This document shows positions 319-47,483 of a stretch of 64,000 nucleotides of DNA, piece after piece (within the stretch, counting starts at the first letter, position 1; every line of letters starts with the position of its first letter). The stretch is from positions 1,612,001-1,676,000 of the forward strand of contig NZ_CP118158.1 in the NCBI RefSeq assembly GCF_028747785.1, given 5' to 3'. Both the position numbers and the translations under genes were made by a program. This DNA comes from Halosimplex aquaticum (GTDB taxonomy: Archaea > Halobacteriota > Halobacteria > Halobacteriales > Haloarculaceae). The notes under the pieces were generated by a model. It saw only the letters and a program-made list of their open reading frames with translations, ran no database searches and was not told where the DNA came from.

Positions 319-686
319 TCACAGATTTGAGAGTGCTCGATCGAGATCGGAGATCAAATCGTCGACGTGCTCAACACCCACGGGAATTCGGACCAGGGAA
401 TCCGGAATTCCAGCGGCTTTACGCTCTTTATCGGAAAGATACGATGCGGACATGGTTGCCGGATGGTCTACGAGTGATTCCGTGCCGCCCAGACTAACTG
501 CCAGTGTGAAAACGTCGAGTTCTTCGAGGATCGCCCGCGTCTCGGCTCCCGTTGCATCTAATTCAAACGAGACGATCCCCCCAAATCCATCCATCTGATC
601 CTGTGCAAGCTTCTGTTGTGAATGATTTGGTAGCCCAGAGGGTGTCATAGAAAGCCTCACACACGAGGACGCAGGGTGTTGGAACT

Positions 687-1685
687 GTGTCTACGAGCGC
701 CAGCACCCTGCAAGAAGAGGGTTCTATCGACGAGTTCTTCAATGTCGTGGCTACCGAGACGCTCGCGTTGTTCGAGCATCTTGAGTTCGACTTTTTCAGC
801 GAGTTCGACGTGTTCGCCCCCGCTCGCCGGGGGCGAACACGAGACCACCACCCACCAGAACTCTTCCGAGCGTTCCTCCACTGCTACTACAAGGACATCT
901 ACGGCATTCGCCCGGTCACACGAGAACTCCAGAACACGGTCGTCTGGCTCAGCTGTGGCTTCGATCGACCGCCCTCAAGAGACGCGGTCGATCGCTTCCT
1001 CACCGACCTCGAACACGTCGTCGACGAAGTCTTCGACCACCTCGTCGAGCAGGCCGCCGCCCGCGGCCTGCTCGACATGACCTACCGAATCGATTCGACG
1101 GACGTGCGAGCGATGCCATCCGACCCAGATGCGTCGAAGAACTACGACCCAACCGCTGAGGAGTACTATTACGGCTACGGCTGTACGATCGTCTCAACCG
1201 GCGCAAAGATCCCGATTGCAGCCGAGTTCACCGAGAGCAAACAAGCCGCAGAAGAGACGGCGATGCGCGTCACCCGTGACGCGCTCGCCGTCGCCCAGCC
1301 GATCTGGATGCTCGGTGACAGCGCCTACGACACGCTCGACTGGCACGACCTCCTGCTGACCGCAGGAGTCGTGCCAATCGCCCCGTACAACCCGCGAAAC
1401 ACCGACGATCCGCTCAATATCAAGTACAGAGTCGAAGACCGCATCGAGAAACACAGTGACGAGATTCAGCTCAAACAGTCGATCCTAGACGAGACGTACA
1501 ACCGCCGGAGTCAGGTCGAGCGAACGAACGATGCGGTCAAGGACTGCGGCCTCGGGACGCTACGCGCCCGAGGCCGCGTCCACGCCCGAGCGCAGGTGTT
1601 CCTTGCGCTCTGCGTTCGACTCGTCGTCGCCGTCACCAACTACGAACGAGGTGACAATCCGGGAAGCACCGTCATCACGGTATGA
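687..1685 (+). CDS. IS4/IS5-group DDE transposase (copy A)
   Basis: This 332-residue transposase starts at a GTG. It has the RNase H-like DDE triad: D136 in YRIDSTD, D211 in MLGDSAYD and E277 in QVERTNDAVKD. Around the glutamate the spacing Y270-x2-R273-x3-E277-x6-K284 is the signature of the IS4/IS5 transposases. The gene appears intact. It differs from copy C (41273-42271) at one residue, Ser instead of Pro in the DPDxxKNYDP stretch, and from copy B (3100-4098) at many positions. A 13-bp perfect hairpin lies within the gene at 810-840. Confidence 0.95.
   Translation: MSTSASTLQEEGSIDEFFNVVATETLALFEHLEFDFFSEFDVFAPARRGRTRDHHPPELFRAFLHCYYKDIYGIRPVTRELQNTVVWLSCGFDRPPSRDAVDRFLTDLEHVVDEVFDHLVEQAAARGLLDMTYRIDSTDVRAMPSDPDASKNYDPTAEEYYYGYGCTIVSTGAKIPIAAEFTESKQAAEETAMRVTRDALAVAQPIWMLGDSAYDTLDWHDLLLTAGVVPIAPYNPRNTDDPLNIKYRVEDRIEKHSDEIQLKQSILDETYNRRSQVERTNDAVKDCGLGTLRARGRVHARAQVFLALCVRLVVAVTNYERGDNPGSTVITV
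810..840 (+). repeat. 13-bp perfect hairpin inside the transposase gene
   Basis: GTGTTCGCCCCCG (810-822) and CGGGGGCGAACAC (828-840) are exact complements with a 5-nt loop. The stem recurs in copy C (42118-42148) and, with nine of the pairs kept but a changed loop, in the divergent copy B (3226-3250). Conservation of the stem with a changed loop suggests RNA or DNA structure may matter, although the coding sequence also constrains it. Confidence 0.6.
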
Positions 1686-2669
1686 GATGGATTCTATGAC
1701 ACCCTCAGCCCAGGGTAGTTGACCTGTACTACCGCCGGATGATCGTCGAGATATGTTGCGATCTCCGCCGCGTTGGTCTCGTGTCGATCCATCCGGAGCG
1801 GGAACGTCCGGAGTCCCCTGAGAGTGAGGTAACAGTCGAAGGGAGCGAGCGTTCCACCGAGATCGTATGCCTGTGTGTGAGTTACTGCTTCGGCAATCGC
1901 CTGATTATCGGTCACTACAGCACCTCCCATCGAGTCGCTATGCCCGTTCAAATACTTCGTCGTGCTATGGACGACGGCATCGGCCCCGTGTTCAAGTGGT
2001 CGCTGGAAGTACGGGGTTGCGAACGTATTATCGACTACGTACGTCGCATCGACAGCTGAAGCGAGCTCGGCTATCGCCGAGAGATCACAGAGCTGGAGCA
2101 ACGGGTTCGTCGGCGATTCCATCCAGATGAGCGCTGTTTCGTCAGTCACTGCTGCTTCGACGGCATTCGTGTCTGTTGCGTCTACATACTCGACGGTAGC
2201 ATCGAGCGAATCGACCAACAGATCCTCGAATAGTACCCGTGTACCGCCGTAAATGCCGTCAAACGCGACGACATGGTCGCCTCCGTCGATGACAGACAGA
2301 CAGATGGCTGCCATTGCAGCGGTTCCAGATGCAGCCGTGACCGCAAATTCCGCACCACACAGCTGAGCGAGTCGAGTTTCGAGTACATCACGCGTCGGAT
2401 TCCCGAAACGAGTGTATTTGTACCCGTGATCAGAATGCCCCGGGCTGTGCATCTCGTGTGTCGTGGTCAGGTGAATCGGTGACACGACGTCACCGGCATC
2501 GGTTTCACCCTCCCCGGTTGCATCGAAGCGGGTCGCTATCGTCTCGAGGTGGTAGTCCGAATCGATCATTCGTATTGAACTTCCCGCGGCAATCACTAAA
2601 AACGAACCGAGGACGGCGGACGGACCAAATACTGCCACCCCCGTGGAAATTGCAAAGGGATCAAGGAGG

Positions 2670-2843: not shown

Positions 2844-3099
2844 TCATGTGAGAGTGTCATTAAACATCTTGATCGGAAAGTTCGTCGTCCTCGCTGTCGT
2901 CTCGGGAGCGGTATTCCCGGTACGGACGGCTCAGAGCTGTGGACTACGTCGATGGGCGTGCGTCCGAACTCGCTCGGCTCTCTCGAACAGATGGATTCTG
3001 GGGGTAGCATCGAATACTGGGTGTTGAAGGCCGAATTAGGTCCGTAGAACGAGCGTGTCATAGAAAGTGCCACGTACGAGGTAGCAGGGTGCGGAAAGT

Positions 3100-4098
3100 G
3101 TGTCCAACATAACCGCAGCCCTGCAAGACGTAGCTTCAGTCGATGAGTTCTTGAATGTCGCGGCTACTGAGACGGTGGCGCTGTTCGAGCATCTTGAATT
3201 CGAATTTCTGCTGGAGTACGACGTATTCGCCCCCGCTTCGTGGGGGCGAACACGAGTTTACGAGCCACCAAATCTCTTTCGTGGCTTCCTGCACTGCTAC
3301 TACGAGGACGTCTACGGTACACGCCCGGTCACGCGAGAACTCCAGTCCACGCTCGTCTGGTACTACTGCGGACTCGACAAACCGCCATCTAGAGACACGG
3401 TTGACCGTTTTCTTACTGACCTCGAACACGTCATCGACGATGTCTTCGCCCGGCTCGTCAAGCAGGCCGCCACCCGCGGCCTGCTTGACTCGACGTACTC
3501 CATCGACTCGACTCACATCGAAGCGATCCAGTACAACGATGCGGCGTCGTGGAACTACGACCCAACAGCTGAAGAGCCCTACTATGGCTTCGGTTGTACG
3601 ATCGTCTCAACCGGGTCAAAGATCCCGATCGCGGCGGAGTTCACACAGGCCAAACAGGCATCCCAAGAGACGGCGATTCGCGTCACACGTGACGCGCTCG
3701 CCGTCGATACGCCAACCTGGATGGTTGGTGACAGCGCCTACGATATGCTCGACTGGCACGACCGACTGCTGGCCGCAGGGGTCGTGCCAGTCGCCCCGTA
3801 CAACCCACGAAACACTGACGATCCGCTCGATATCGAGTACAGGGTCGAAGACCGTATCGAAGAACACGGCGATGACGTTCAACTCAAGCAATCCGTCTTA
3901 GACGAGACGTACAACCGCCGGACTGGAGTCGAACGAACTAACAATGCGGTCAAGGACTGTGGCCTCGGGCATGTCCGCGCCCGAGGCCGCGTTCACGCAC
4001 GAACACAAGTGTTCCTTGCGCTGTGTCTCCGGATTGTCGTTGCAATCACCAACTTTGAGCAGGGCGACGACCCTGGTCGTGAGAAGCTCAAGCTATGA
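3100..4098 (+). CDS. IS4/IS5-group DDE transposase (copy B)
   Basis: This 332-residue protein is homologous along its whole length to the transposases of copies A and C but is clearly divergent. It begins at a GTG in the same context as copy A. The catalytic residues are kept: Asp in YSIDSTH, Asp in MVGDSAYD, and Glu in GVERTNNAVKD with the Y(2)R(3)E(6)K spacing. No frameshift or stop is visible, so the enzyme may be active, consistent with the clean target duplication around the enlarged element. Confidence 0.93.
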   Translation: MSNITAALQDVASVDEFLNVAATETVALFEHLEFEFLLEYDVFAPASWGRTRVYEPPNLFRGFLHCYYEDVYGTRPVTRELQSTLVWYYCGLDKPPSRDTVDRFLTDLEHVIDDVFARLVKQAATRGLLDSTYSIDSTHIEAIQYNDAASWNYDPTAEEPYYGFGCTIVSTGSKIPIAAEFTQAKQASQETAIRVTRDALAVDTPTWMVGDSAYDMLDWHDRLLAAGVVPVAPYNPRNTDDPLDIEYRVEDRIEEHGDDVQLKQSVLDETYNRRTGVERTNNAVKDCGLGHVRARGRVHARTQVFLALCLRIVVAITNFEQGDDPGREKLKL

Positions 4099-4147
4099 GA
4101 CGGATTCGATGATACGTTCTGTGGTAGAACCGGACACGAGAGGATAG

Positions 4148-4498
4148 TTACCGAGGCACTTCCTCGTATCCGATATCCGGGCCGGAGTGGATAGAGACGA
4201 AAATAACGTCTTCATTCCCCTCGTTTACGCCGCCGTGGACGACCTCCTGCGGAGCGACGTCTACTTGGCCGGCTTCGATTTGCTCGGATGTCTCATCTCC
4301 AAGGTAGTAGGTCAGTGTTCCCTGCATCATCACCCACGTGTCTTGACCATCAGGATGAACGTGTGGTGTGACCTCTTGGCCAGGTTTGATCCCCCACACG
4401 AAGACCGCAGAGTCATCAGTCTCAGCTACTTTCGTACTCGTTGCTGTATCGTCGGAAAATTCGACAGCTTCTGTTGCGGTGAAAATCCTGTCGTCCAT
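4148..4498 (-). CDS. cupin-domain protein (IS passenger)
   Basis: This 116-residue single cupin domain has the metal-binding pattern GQEVTPHVHPDGQDTWVMMQG in motif 1 (His, His, and the late Gln/Asp/Trp region) and a second motif around VAPQEVVHGGVNEGNED with His. The family binds a divalent metal in a small beta-barrel; no substrate can be deduced. I chose the ATG at 4496-4498, since upstream residues look non-coding and run into the inverted repeat. The gene sits between the transposase and the right inverted repeat of copy B, in opposite orientation to the transposase, within the target-site duplication. Function in the cell or for the element is unknown. Confidence 0.8.
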   Translation of the reverse strand: MDDRIFTATEAVEFSDDTATSTKVAETDDSAVFVWGIKPGQEVTPHVHPDGQDTWVMMQGTLTYYLGDETSEQIEAGQVDVAPQEVVHGGVNEGNEDVIFVSIHSGPDIGYEEVPR

Positions 4499-4674
4499 CG
4501 TAATAGAGAATAGAAATCTTCTAACAGTAAGTCCTTCGCTCGGAATAACCGTCGAGCGTTCGCAGGTTGGGTATAGCAACCATTCTATGACACCCTACCG
4601 TAGAACTGACACCACCGCGCTGAGCGACTATGTTCGGGAGGACTGGTACCCTGATCGAGAACGAATGCGTGAGT

Positions 4675-5788: not shown

Positions 5789-6797
5789 CGCTCGTCACCT
5801 CTGCGGGGTCGCTGATCGGTTCTCCGTTTTCCGCTGCGCTCTCACCGGAATCTTCTCCGCCAAGATCATCGAGTTCGCAGACGCCTTCGATGGGGGAACA
5901 GGCCCGCCACATCGGGCAGAGCTTGAAGATGACCACCAACAGACCGATGAATCCGACCTTCGCGAGGACAGCCACTCCGACGGTACTTCCGAGATACGAC
6001 GAACCGTTTGTTCCGAGGCTGTCCACCGCTTGATAGAGACCAGTCAGGAACAGCGTCGGGATGATGAACCGAACTGCCCACCGAAACCGCTCGAGTTGCT
6101 CACCCGCTGCTTGAATGACACGGACCGTCGGTCGCTTCTGGCCTGTCGGAACGGCTACGAAAATGTTCCACACCGCGCCGCCGATCCATACCGCAAACGT
6201 CAGGAGATGGAGTATACGGACACCTGCGGCGACAGGGTCAAAGCCACGCATCGCGACTTCCGCGACGGCCGTCGCGACGACGACCGCTAGCGCGAGTGCC
6301 AGCGCGGCTAGCCCGATCGGACTACGGAACTGGTGTTTGATGGCGTCGCTTCGGGATGTCGTCACGGCGGTGAGCGCGATCAAAGCACCCACGACCACGG
6401 CGTACCCGAGGACGGCCGGAGACGGCCCGAGAACTCCGAAATAGTTCCAGATGACCGCAGTGCCGCTAAGTGCGACCGTCGCAATTGTGCCCACTGCGAT
6501 GTAGTCGAACCGTTCGTACATCTCGGCACAGTAGTCGGCAGCGTCGTCGCCGAGATCCGCCGGACGTACGAAGAGGTGTTTCCAGACGAGTCCACCGGTA
6601 AGGACACCCAGTGCGACGAAATACGCCCACTTGACCACGGTGAACCCCGCACCCATGCCCCCGTTGAGACTCGTGGTGACCCACGTCCCCACCAGCGATG
6701 CTACCAATATGACGGCCAGGGCGATCTTCGGAAGTGTGTATCTATCGAAGAGCGCGTCTGTCTGTTCCGCAGCGGTCGTAGTCCTGGACTCTGGCAT
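5781..6797 (-). CDS. CopD-domain multi-spanning membrane protein
   Basis: This 338-residue protein has about eight hydrophobic helices and the CopD-like features HLLTFAVWIGGAVWNIFVAV and FIIPTLFLTGLYQAVDSLG. A second cytoplasmic or external tail is cysteine-bearing (LCPMWRACSPIEGVCELDD) and ends in an acidic region. CopD proteins sit in the membrane and are linked to copper uptake or to redox partners; the His residues in the helices may bind metal or heme. It precedes and overlaps the TusA-like gene by 8 nt. A shorter paralogue lies at 39332-40228. An operator-like palindrome sits about 30 bp upstream. Function in copper transport is inferred from the family only. Confidence 0.75.
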   Translation of the reverse strand: MPESRTTTAAEQTDALFDRYTLPKIALAVILVASLVGTWVTTSLNGGMGAGFTVVKWAYFVALGVLTGGLVWKHLFVRPADLGDDAADYCAEMYERFDYIAVGTIATVALSGTAVIWNYFGVLGPSPAVLGYAVVVGALIALTAVTTSRSDAIKHQFRSPIGLAALALALAVVVATAVAEVAMRGFDPVAAGVRILHLLTFAVWIGGAVWNIFVAVPTGQKRPTVRVIQAAGEQLERFRWAVRFIIPTLFLTGLYQAVDSLGTNGSSYLGSTVGVAVLAKVGFIGLLVVIFKLCPMWRACSPIEGVCELDDLGGEDSGESAAENGEPISDPAEVTSDD

Positions 6798-18930: not shown

Positions 18931-18976
18931 CTCGGTTCCGAACCGTGAATAGAATTCACAGTTACTTACGGGTACA

Positions 18977-18997
18977 GGGAGTCATAGAACGGTTAAC
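18977..18997. repeat. solo IS-end-like sequence
   Basis: GGGAGTCATAGAACGGTTAAC resembles the outward-reading complement of the end at 47456-47480 (GGTGCCATAGAACAGTTCAC). No transposase is adjacent. Likely a remnant. Confidence 0.3.
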
Positions 18998-19081
18998 GCA
19001 CCCACCTTCTGATCTCTCGAATCGCTCAATACAGATGTTCAACAGAGCGTGAGTTTCGATATATGGGCAGAACCATTCGTT

Positions 19082-43365: not shown

Positions 43366-43476
43366 GAGTGTCATAGACTGGAGAACAGCAAACAGTACGC
43401 ATACCTACTGAGCAGAAGGTTCGTCCCCAGAGTTTGAAATCAATCACCTTGGGAACTGTTCTCTGGCATCTTATAG
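43366..43476. repeat. IS-end-like sequences, possible short non-autonomous element
   Basis: GAGTGTCATAGACTG at 43366-43380 resembles the left terminus of the IS copies, and ATCAATCACCTTGGGAACTG and following at 43439-43476 matches 47446-47483 at about 32 of 38 positions. The two ends could bound a 111-bp non-autonomous element, but their inverted-repeat pairing is imperfect and no target duplication is clear. Confidence 0.35.
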
Positions 43477-46934: not shown

Positions 46935-47387
46935 ATGAAGCGGCGACGATTTCTTACAATGAGTTGCTCCGGGATTCTGGCTGGTGTTACTGGCTGTCTG
47001 AGCTTTGCCGGGGGGAGTGGCGACGAAGATACGTGGTCGCCAGCCATCGAGGGGGCCGAACCGACGCTCTCATTCGCCGAGGAATCACGGCTGACAGTGG
47101 AAGCGAACGATATTGCCGGACTGACGGTCAAACTCCCCGATCCGCAGTTTATCGCGTTCCGATTCCGAAACGCGAACTGGTCGCCGAATCCGACGAGAAC
47201 CTCGGATTCGTATCCACCTCGGTGGGTCTGGTCGCCACCCCGATCCGTGTCAGGTGAAATCCCGATTCAGATAGGTGACCACGCTGAGCCGGGTGAATAC
47301 ACATATGGAGTGAAAGTTTTTGCTGAACGTGGCCCTGACGCCAAAACAGCTGTTGAAACCTTCAGCATCACAATCACTGGAAATTAA
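46935..47387 (+). CDS. secreted lipoprotein, 150 aa
   Basis: The protein begins MKRRRFLTMSCSGILAGVTG, an archaeal signal with RRR and the lipobox LAGVTGC, followed by an acidic linker and a beta-rich domain (SGEIPIQIGDHAEPGEYTYG, AVETFSITITGN). It is likely anchored outside. The Tat-type start is possible but the twin-arginine context is not classical. No family. Confidence 0.7.
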   Translation: MKRRRFLTMSCSGILAGVTGCLSFAGGSGDEDTWSPAIEGAEPTLSFAEESRLTVEANDIAGLTVKLPDPQFIAFRFRNANWSPNPTRTSDSYPPRWVWSPPRSVSGEIPIQIGDHAEPGEYTYGVKVFAERGPDAKTAVETFSITITGN

Positions 47388-47445
47388 CCCTCCACTCAGT
47401 TCGCAAACCTACTTATCAGCTGTTTCATTACCAATAGTCCTGTAA

Positions 47446-47483
47446 TCAATCGCCTTGTGAACTGTTCTATGGCACCCTATTGA
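47446..47483. repeat. solo IS-end-like sequence
   Basis: ATCAATCGCCTTGTGAACTG and TTCTATGGCACCCTATTG together match 43439-43476 and, in a 17-bp core, 5408-5424. The outer part (TTCTATGGCACCC) resembles the right inverted repeat of the window's IS copies. No transposase is adjacent, so it is probably a remnant marking the right side of the island. Confidence 0.5.

Follow-up and report, generated by a model that had tools for sequence, protein, structure and literature searches.

The 1,548-bp unit analysed here, which is located in a 64,000-nucleotide stretch of the Halosimplex aquaticum genome (hereinafter the window), is probably a fused transposon that combines an IS5-like element with a transposase-free cupin cassette and whose outer ends would mobilise the pair. 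The unit starts with the left end of an insertion sequence (IS) and a transposase gene, followed in the interior by a decayed right end of the IS, then by a cupin gene encoded on the opposite strand and directed from the right end toward the interior, and finally by a good right end (Table 1). With a passenger gene placed between IS-type outer ends, this layout is that of a transporter IS (tIS), discussed below.

Table 1. Features of the 1,548-bp unit and its flanks; positions are those of the window
Feature	Position	Strand	Basis
Target duplication, left copy, CGTAGAAC	3043-3050		Identical to 4599-4606
Left terminal inverted repeat, GAGCGTGTCATAGAA	3051-3065	+	Shared with the closest IS relatives at their 5' end
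Transposase, 332 aa, DDE_Tnp_1	3100-4098	+	Frame and profile search
Decayed inner right end of the IS, TTCGATGATACGTTC	4105-4119	+	Comparison with IS relatives
Possible remnant of the cupin cassette left end (TGTnnTAGAAC....CAC.AG), weak	4115-4143	+	Left-module score; overlaps the IS end
Cupin gene, 116 aa from the ATG at 4498, Cupin_2	4148-4498	-	Frame and profile search
Cassette-type right-end module, terminal repeat TTCTATGACACCCTA(C) at 4583-4598	4538-4598	+	Matrix score
Target duplication, right copy, CGTAGAAC	4599-4606		Identical to 3043-3050

The two copies of CGTAGAAC are located directly outside GAGCGTGTCATAGAA (3051-3065) and TTCTATGACACCCTAC (4583-4598), and the repeat becomes 9 bp long (CCGTAGAAC) if the right end is taken to stop at ...CCCTA. 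By our own arithmetic, the chance of an exact 8-mer at precisely these places is about 1.5e-5, or about 1e-4 if one base of play is allowed. Of 19 IS-only copies, 7 have exact repeats of 7 bp or more close to their ends according to a script that permitted generous offsets; the three clear repeats among these (GTAGAAAA, TCGGTGGT and ATCACGTC) are 8 bp long. The repeat at the unit is thus of the usual size and correctly placed and most likely stems from an insertion event that involved the entire unit, and the sequence is best compatible with a single move of the IS and the cupin gene as one piece, most likely with the cupin as the passenger. The same locus could be seen as a dead relic, that is, adjoining IS fragments flanked by a coincidental 8-bp repeat, with no transposition at the level of the unit. 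The single copy, the decayed inner end, the abundance of partial IS matches in the same genome and the 12 of 19 IS copies that lack a clear repeat are all compatible with such a relic, but it is made very improbable by the open transposase frame, the conserved cupin and an exact repeat of 8 or 9 bp that adjoins both ends and is as long as those at other copies.

The transposase frame (3100-4098) contains no internal stop, so that the unit is predicted to be capable of moving itself. The relatives of this transposase are annotated as IS5-like, e.g., ISNpe15 and ISNpe2 with 86.9% and 85.8% DNA identity, respectively, and further close relatives are found in elements on Halobacterium salinarum and Natrialbaceae plasmids. 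The label IS5-like is taken here from the annotation of these relatives (the ISNpe15 group); in an NCBIfam scan, no model reached its curated cut-off, and the best one was IS1182 (76 of 270 bits), above the IS5 models (24-25 bits). All four close relatives examined (ISNpe15, ISNpe2 and two more) start with (G)AGCGTGTCATAGAA, retain TTCTATGACACGCTC after the gene, and contain no cupin between their ends. In the unit, no intact right end directly follows the transposase, and the good end is located 479 bp further on. The inner right end, TTCGATGATACGTTC, differs at 3 of 15 bases from TTCTATGACACGCTC, and at 4 of 15 bases from GGATTCTATGACACCCTC, which directly follows the transposase of the other IS copy in the window (638-1706). 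As the left end is the same as in the close relatives, it is that of the unit's own IS. Thus, three elements of a preliminary description of this DNA hold, namely the 8-bp repeat that encloses both the transposase and the cupin and abuts the ends, the decay of the inner right end, and the presence beyond the cupin of a matching end, which is a cassette-type terminal repeat. The complete IS copy at 638-1706 itself appears to truncate a gene for a Cys/Met-metabolism PLP enzyme (1694-2761), for which the profile is matched only up to position 281 of 381.

The same description proposed that the distal end had been newly adopted by a single IS. As judged by comparison of sequences, this end instead represents the right-end module of cassettes that form a widespread class, and not a chance match. 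With a right-module matrix trained on 38 cassettes, the unit left out, positions 4538-4597 score 37.8, a level equalled or exceeded by 1 of 115,352 background positions, which is itself such an end (window 18975-19034), and the match extends over some 25-30 bases, beyond the terminal 13. Both properties speak against the scenario in which an ordinary IS next to a cupin gene of the chromosome recruited an end-like sequence, mutated or present by chance, on the far side of that gene; this scenario would account for a decayed inner right end combined with a good end past the cupin but is, on the whole, improbable. The possibility that the distal end arose by duplication of the right end of the IS in the unit was rejected because the right termini of the four closest relatives examined read CACGCTC versus CACCCTA in the unit. 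In the cassette consensus, the left module is gAGGGTGTCATAGAACtaTTCACAAGGTgTTgtTTTC and the right module is ...GGGTATGcGAACtGTTCTATGACACCCTC; some autonomous IS of the group begin, at the 5' end, with about 27 bases equal to the reverse complement of the right module (e.g., GAGGGTGTCATAGAACAGTTCGCATACC in L158). The identity of the distal end with a cassette module suggests that the cupin probably arrived as a cassette that already possessed IS-type ends. The left-module match at 4115 ranks only second among those in the unit (P 3.2e-4 per position), overlaps the decayed IS end, and may be due to chance.

Other modules of this type are present in the window, all on the minus strand. The right-end module at 18975-19034 scores 45.4, above that of the unit, and no good partner left end was found within about 2.5 kb (the best candidate has 3 mismatches in 13). 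A left-end module at 47438-47479 (score 41.4) adjoins a lipoprotein-like frame (46935-47387), and no good partner end was found for it. Another left-end module, at 43432-43473 (score 28.6), has a possible partner at 43366-43378 with 2 mismatches, which would make a 108-bp element.

The segment between the IS and the cupin bears on a different order of events, in which the cupin cassette first inserted into CGTAGAAC and the left copy of the 8-mer subsequently served as the precise target of the IS; the outer repeats would then carry no record of a move by the entire unit. The sequence GGTAGAAC at 4123-4130, with 7 of 8 bases identical to CGTAGAAC, could be a third, mutated target copy; the IS family may favour such targets, as one IS copy (L011) sits in GTAGAAAA; and the arrangement around a related cupin gene, L028 (see below), could likewise result from an independent IS insertion. 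However, three extra bases separate GGTAGAAC from the IS end, and the best cassette-left match overlaps GGTAGAAC instead of following it. Because no cassette end follows GGTAGAAC, two separate insertions are rated lower and considered unlikely, albeit worth keeping in mind.

Under the preferred reading of the unit as a fused transposon, we infer the following course of events. An autonomous IS5-like element with the ends of its subfamily (GAGCGTGTCATAGAA) would have come to adjoin, with its 3' end inward, a cupin cassette that lacked a transposase and held its gene between its own IS-type ends. The two facing inner ends would have decayed, leaving the left end of the IS and the right end of the cassette as the sole good pair, and both outer ends of the unit would then be 5'-type IS ends in inverted orientation. 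The transposase of this copy, or a related one, may have acted on this outer pair, whereupon the whole unit would have inserted into CGTAGAAC and duplicated it. The points against this reading are the weakness of the cassette left end, the single copy, and the failure to find an empty site in the genus and family searches. Further such points are the possible third target copy GGTAGAAC, the possibly independent origin of the L028 arrangement, and the absence of close end matches around two other haloarchaeal cupin relatives, L059 and L060 (see below).

In the H. aquaticum genome, 51 places match the unit; partial matches to its IS are common, and only one of the 51 covers the cupin half. No second copy of the unit was detected in this genome, in 146 genomes of the family searched with the cupin half as the query, or in the plasmid collection. 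The cupin-half search yielded matches in 5 of the 146 genomes, the unit's own copy included: a cupin relative in G032, an unrelated short stretch in G084, and, in G006 and G022, a stretch of about 40 bases from the unit's right end. In G006, the match marks the right terminus of an element 468 bp long that has an 11-bp direct repeat and contains a small frame resembling a membrane protein. Searches for the empty site found none in 8 genomes of the genus with the downstream flank as the query and, with the joined flanks in 142 genomes of the family, no match across the junction among the matches listed; the right flank matches its own genome and, additionally, 38 bases in one other genome. Thus, the earlier proposal that the unit transposes its passenger stands in part: the matching ends and the single duplication argue for a past move in one piece, whereas the identical copies elsewhere that were expected to prove mobility did not turn up in the genomes and plasmids searched, and neither did an empty site.

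Relatives of the cupin were found at 27 loci in genome contigs, one of them haloarchaeal, and at none in viral contigs. A search of 391 genomes of the class (a listing that excludes G032, the source of a fourth cupin) gave three matches at E<=1e-15, namely the unit's own cupin, L059 and L060. The dN/dS of the cupin is about 0.08 in comparisons of the unit with both L028 and L060, an approximate value given that dS is near 2; synonymous sites are saturated in the comparison with L059. These ratios indicate that the cupin gene is kept as a protein under purifying selection. No end within 2 mismatches of 13 is present in the 6.5 and 9 kb fetched around L059 and L060, respectively; L060 contains an end-like site at 5928-5940, about 1.5 kb from the cupin relative, with 3 of 13 mismatches and a left-module score of 8.6. 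In a Pseudomonas plasmid array (L094), a 42%-identical cupin relative (3986-4348) is encoded between qnrVC1 and arr-2, and the array also includes qacEdelta1 and sul1; we take this array to be an integron. Its cupin indicates that the family is carried by mobile units in bacteria, too.

The locus L028 from Halobacteriales archaeon QS_6_64_34 encodes a cupin that is 74% identical to that of the unit. Directly ahead of this cupin gene are the 3'-terminal tens of bases of a transposase gene and a decayed IS end, with the transposase remnant and the cupin in the same relative orientation as in the unit. The remnant scores 35 against the unit and 6.5-25.5 against nine other IS copies. The conclusion that it is closest to the unit's own transposase was dropped because four close relatives of the ISNpe15 group fit as well or better (35.5-43); by similarity, the remnant is from the same IS subfamily and not specific to this unit. 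Beyond the cupin, TTATATGACACGCTG is the second-best right-module match on both strands of the 8.3-kb locus, with a score of -4.1 that is no better than the best chance-level matches in L059 (-4.5) and L060 (8.6). Given these similar or higher scores, it is only the position that supports an outer end in L028. The left end of the IS is missing from L028, and a candidate cassette left end (score -17.4, P 0.003) was too weak to be claimed. This arrangement hints at an older association between the IS and the cupin; an independent IS insertion at L028 is also possible because four other members of the IS subfamily match the remnant equally well or better. The capture of the cupin may have been recent or older, given that in L028 a related gene adjoins a remnant of the same subfamily.

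The cassette class to which the distal end belongs is represented in many haloarchaea. An exact search for the right module identified it in only 2 of 391 genomes, so that mismatches were needed; a degenerate end pattern with up to 3 mismatches matched 145 of 392 genomes of the order, and the reversed pattern, used as a control, gave zero matches in every genome listed. Some matches of the degenerate pattern are the ends of ordinary IS. From the places listed, 80 in 50 genomes were hand-picked, leaving out strings typical of complete IS, and nine of these were then dropped as IS or IS-derived (L096, L108, L121, L132, L150, L154, L158, L159 and L160). A partner left end, chosen regardless of direct repeats, was found in 42 of the remaining 71 places (28 genomes); the other 29 have none, in some cases because the contig ends. 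The 42 cassettes are 221-2,320 bp long. Direct repeats of at least 7 bp flank 21 of the 42, compared with 2 of 1,722 mismatched flank pairs, a control that guards only in part against the fact that the left-end matrix was built partly from repeat-ranked ends; with two identical copies (L122 and L123) that share the same repeat counted once, the number is 20 of 41 distinct cassettes. None of the 42 cassettes matches either of two IS transposases at E<=1e-3. Thus, the elements of the wider class (L095-L170) combine IS-type ends with a passenger and have no related transposase, which is the composition of a mobile insertion cassette.

Several individual places deserve a brief description. The identical 751-bp acetyltransferase cassettes L122 and L123 are located on one contig of G031 and share their target repeat, suggesting that a larger segment was duplicated and not that two insertions occurred. 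Of the places excluded from the cassette counts, L159 and L160, two places with the same flanks in G121, are each 562 bp long, contain a helix-hairpin-helix-like frame of 60 aa and have ends resembling the 5' end of the IS. Several paired AGCGTGTCATAGAA ends about 400 bp apart are present in G132 (L164 and other places).

Judged by eye, most cassettes carry one convincing frame, and some carry none or two. Among 30 frames scanned, one per element, 12 reach the Pfam cut-off: DUF6653, Metallophos, HalOD1 (two), TrkA_N, GNAT (two), MazG-like, DUF6176, MarR_2, DUF3592 and Rce1-like; those below it include lipoprotein-like and unknown frames. There are pairs of cassettes with near-identical ends and unrelated middles. 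For example, L110 and L112, from one genome, are 100% identical in the first 75 bp and 97% identical in the last 60 bp, with no other blastn match, and for L122/L124 (one genome) and L107/L111 (two genomes), identity is 84-88% in the left 80 bp and 97-100% in the right 59 bp. When the joined flanks of six cassettes were compared with 32 genomes of one genus, empty sites with one target copy were found in relatives for three (L122, L124 and L110), identical in the case of L122, the surroundings of which occur several times, its own genome included, and diverged for the other two; for the remaining three cassettes, the matches listed cover one flank only or come from the cassette's own genome. 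By this comparison among relatives, the empty sites show past insertion of cassettes other than the one in the unit.

The enzyme that moves the cassettes is uncertain because 5 of 12 cassette genomes searched have no related transposase and it is full-length without stops in only four (G007, G011, G073 and G161) of the seven that do. At E<=1e-40, none was detected in G002, G005, G006, G132 and G137, and a tblastn search of the 30 end-bearing loci fetched did not find one either. Only a transposase fragment with two stops is present in G031, the host of the best empty-site case. A similar puzzle over the moving enzyme is described, in the cited portion of the article, for a Haloquadratum MITE (PMC3119063).

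Taken together, these observations outline a possible route of gene flow in haloarchaea, in which small genes, such as those for acetyltransferases, signalling domains, regulators, lipoprotein-like frames and the cupin, are packaged between IS-type ends, some of them being absent from the matching sites in relatives. We tentatively suggest, as a view that falls somewhat short of probable, that haloarchaea harbour a lineage-wide, integron-like pool of cassettes, mostly with a single gene, that have constant end modules of the IS5 type and swapped genes, and that the unit described here is an autonomous IS re-attached to such a cassette, which would thereby have regained a transposase. The fused unit would represent one way in which a transposase-free cassette could become self-mobile, and how genes are captured can be tested directly with pairs that combine shared ends with different cargo, some of them from a single genome. 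No description of this cassette class was recognised in the open-access literature searched, and part of the class may already be catalogued in ISfinder. In the cited portions, an article on Halorubrum lacusprofundi mentions a single transposon passenger gene (PMC10544981), and a review of MITEs names a few haloarchaeal hosts (PMC10969869).

Among known elements, ISNpe15 and ISNpe2 of Natrinema pellirubrum, as well as ISH11, have a transposase and a left end like those of the unit. In ISNpe15, ISNpe2 and two relatives, an intact end comes right after the transposase, in contrast to the decayed inner end and the enclosed cupin of the unit. The target duplications of 6, 8 and 9 bp given for ISH11 in the cited section (PMC10264941) resemble the 7-8 bp seen at the IS copies here. 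Copies of IS with passenger genes that are unrelated to transposition are known as tIS, as outlined in the cited part of PMC3129680; the unit differs from these in that its passenger appears to bring its own end module, which would make it a hybrid of two element types. A further likeness is found in the Halobacterium 'special case A', in which, as far as the cited section describes it, ISH2 is located beside a partial ISH8A under one 10-bp duplication (PMC10264941), i.e., a transposase-free element and an adjacent IS share a common duplication as in the unit. In that case, ISH8A is a 311-bp piece, whereas the IS of the unit retains its complete transposase gene and has a cupin as its passenger.

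Mobile insertion cassettes hold passenger genes. They are a named kind of non-autonomous IS-type elements that are moved in trans. The term appears in PMC3129680 and PMC6542083, and MIC231 of Bacillus cereus appears among the references of PMC2266710. The ends of MIC231 are of the IS231 type and its host is a Bacillus, whereas the cassettes described here have IS5-like ends, reside in haloarchaea and carry many unrelated cargo genes. Integron gene cassettes are mostly single-gene units with exchangeable cargo. The haloarchaeal cassettes resemble them in the prevalence of single genes and in exchangeable cargo but are distinguished by inverted ends and target duplications.
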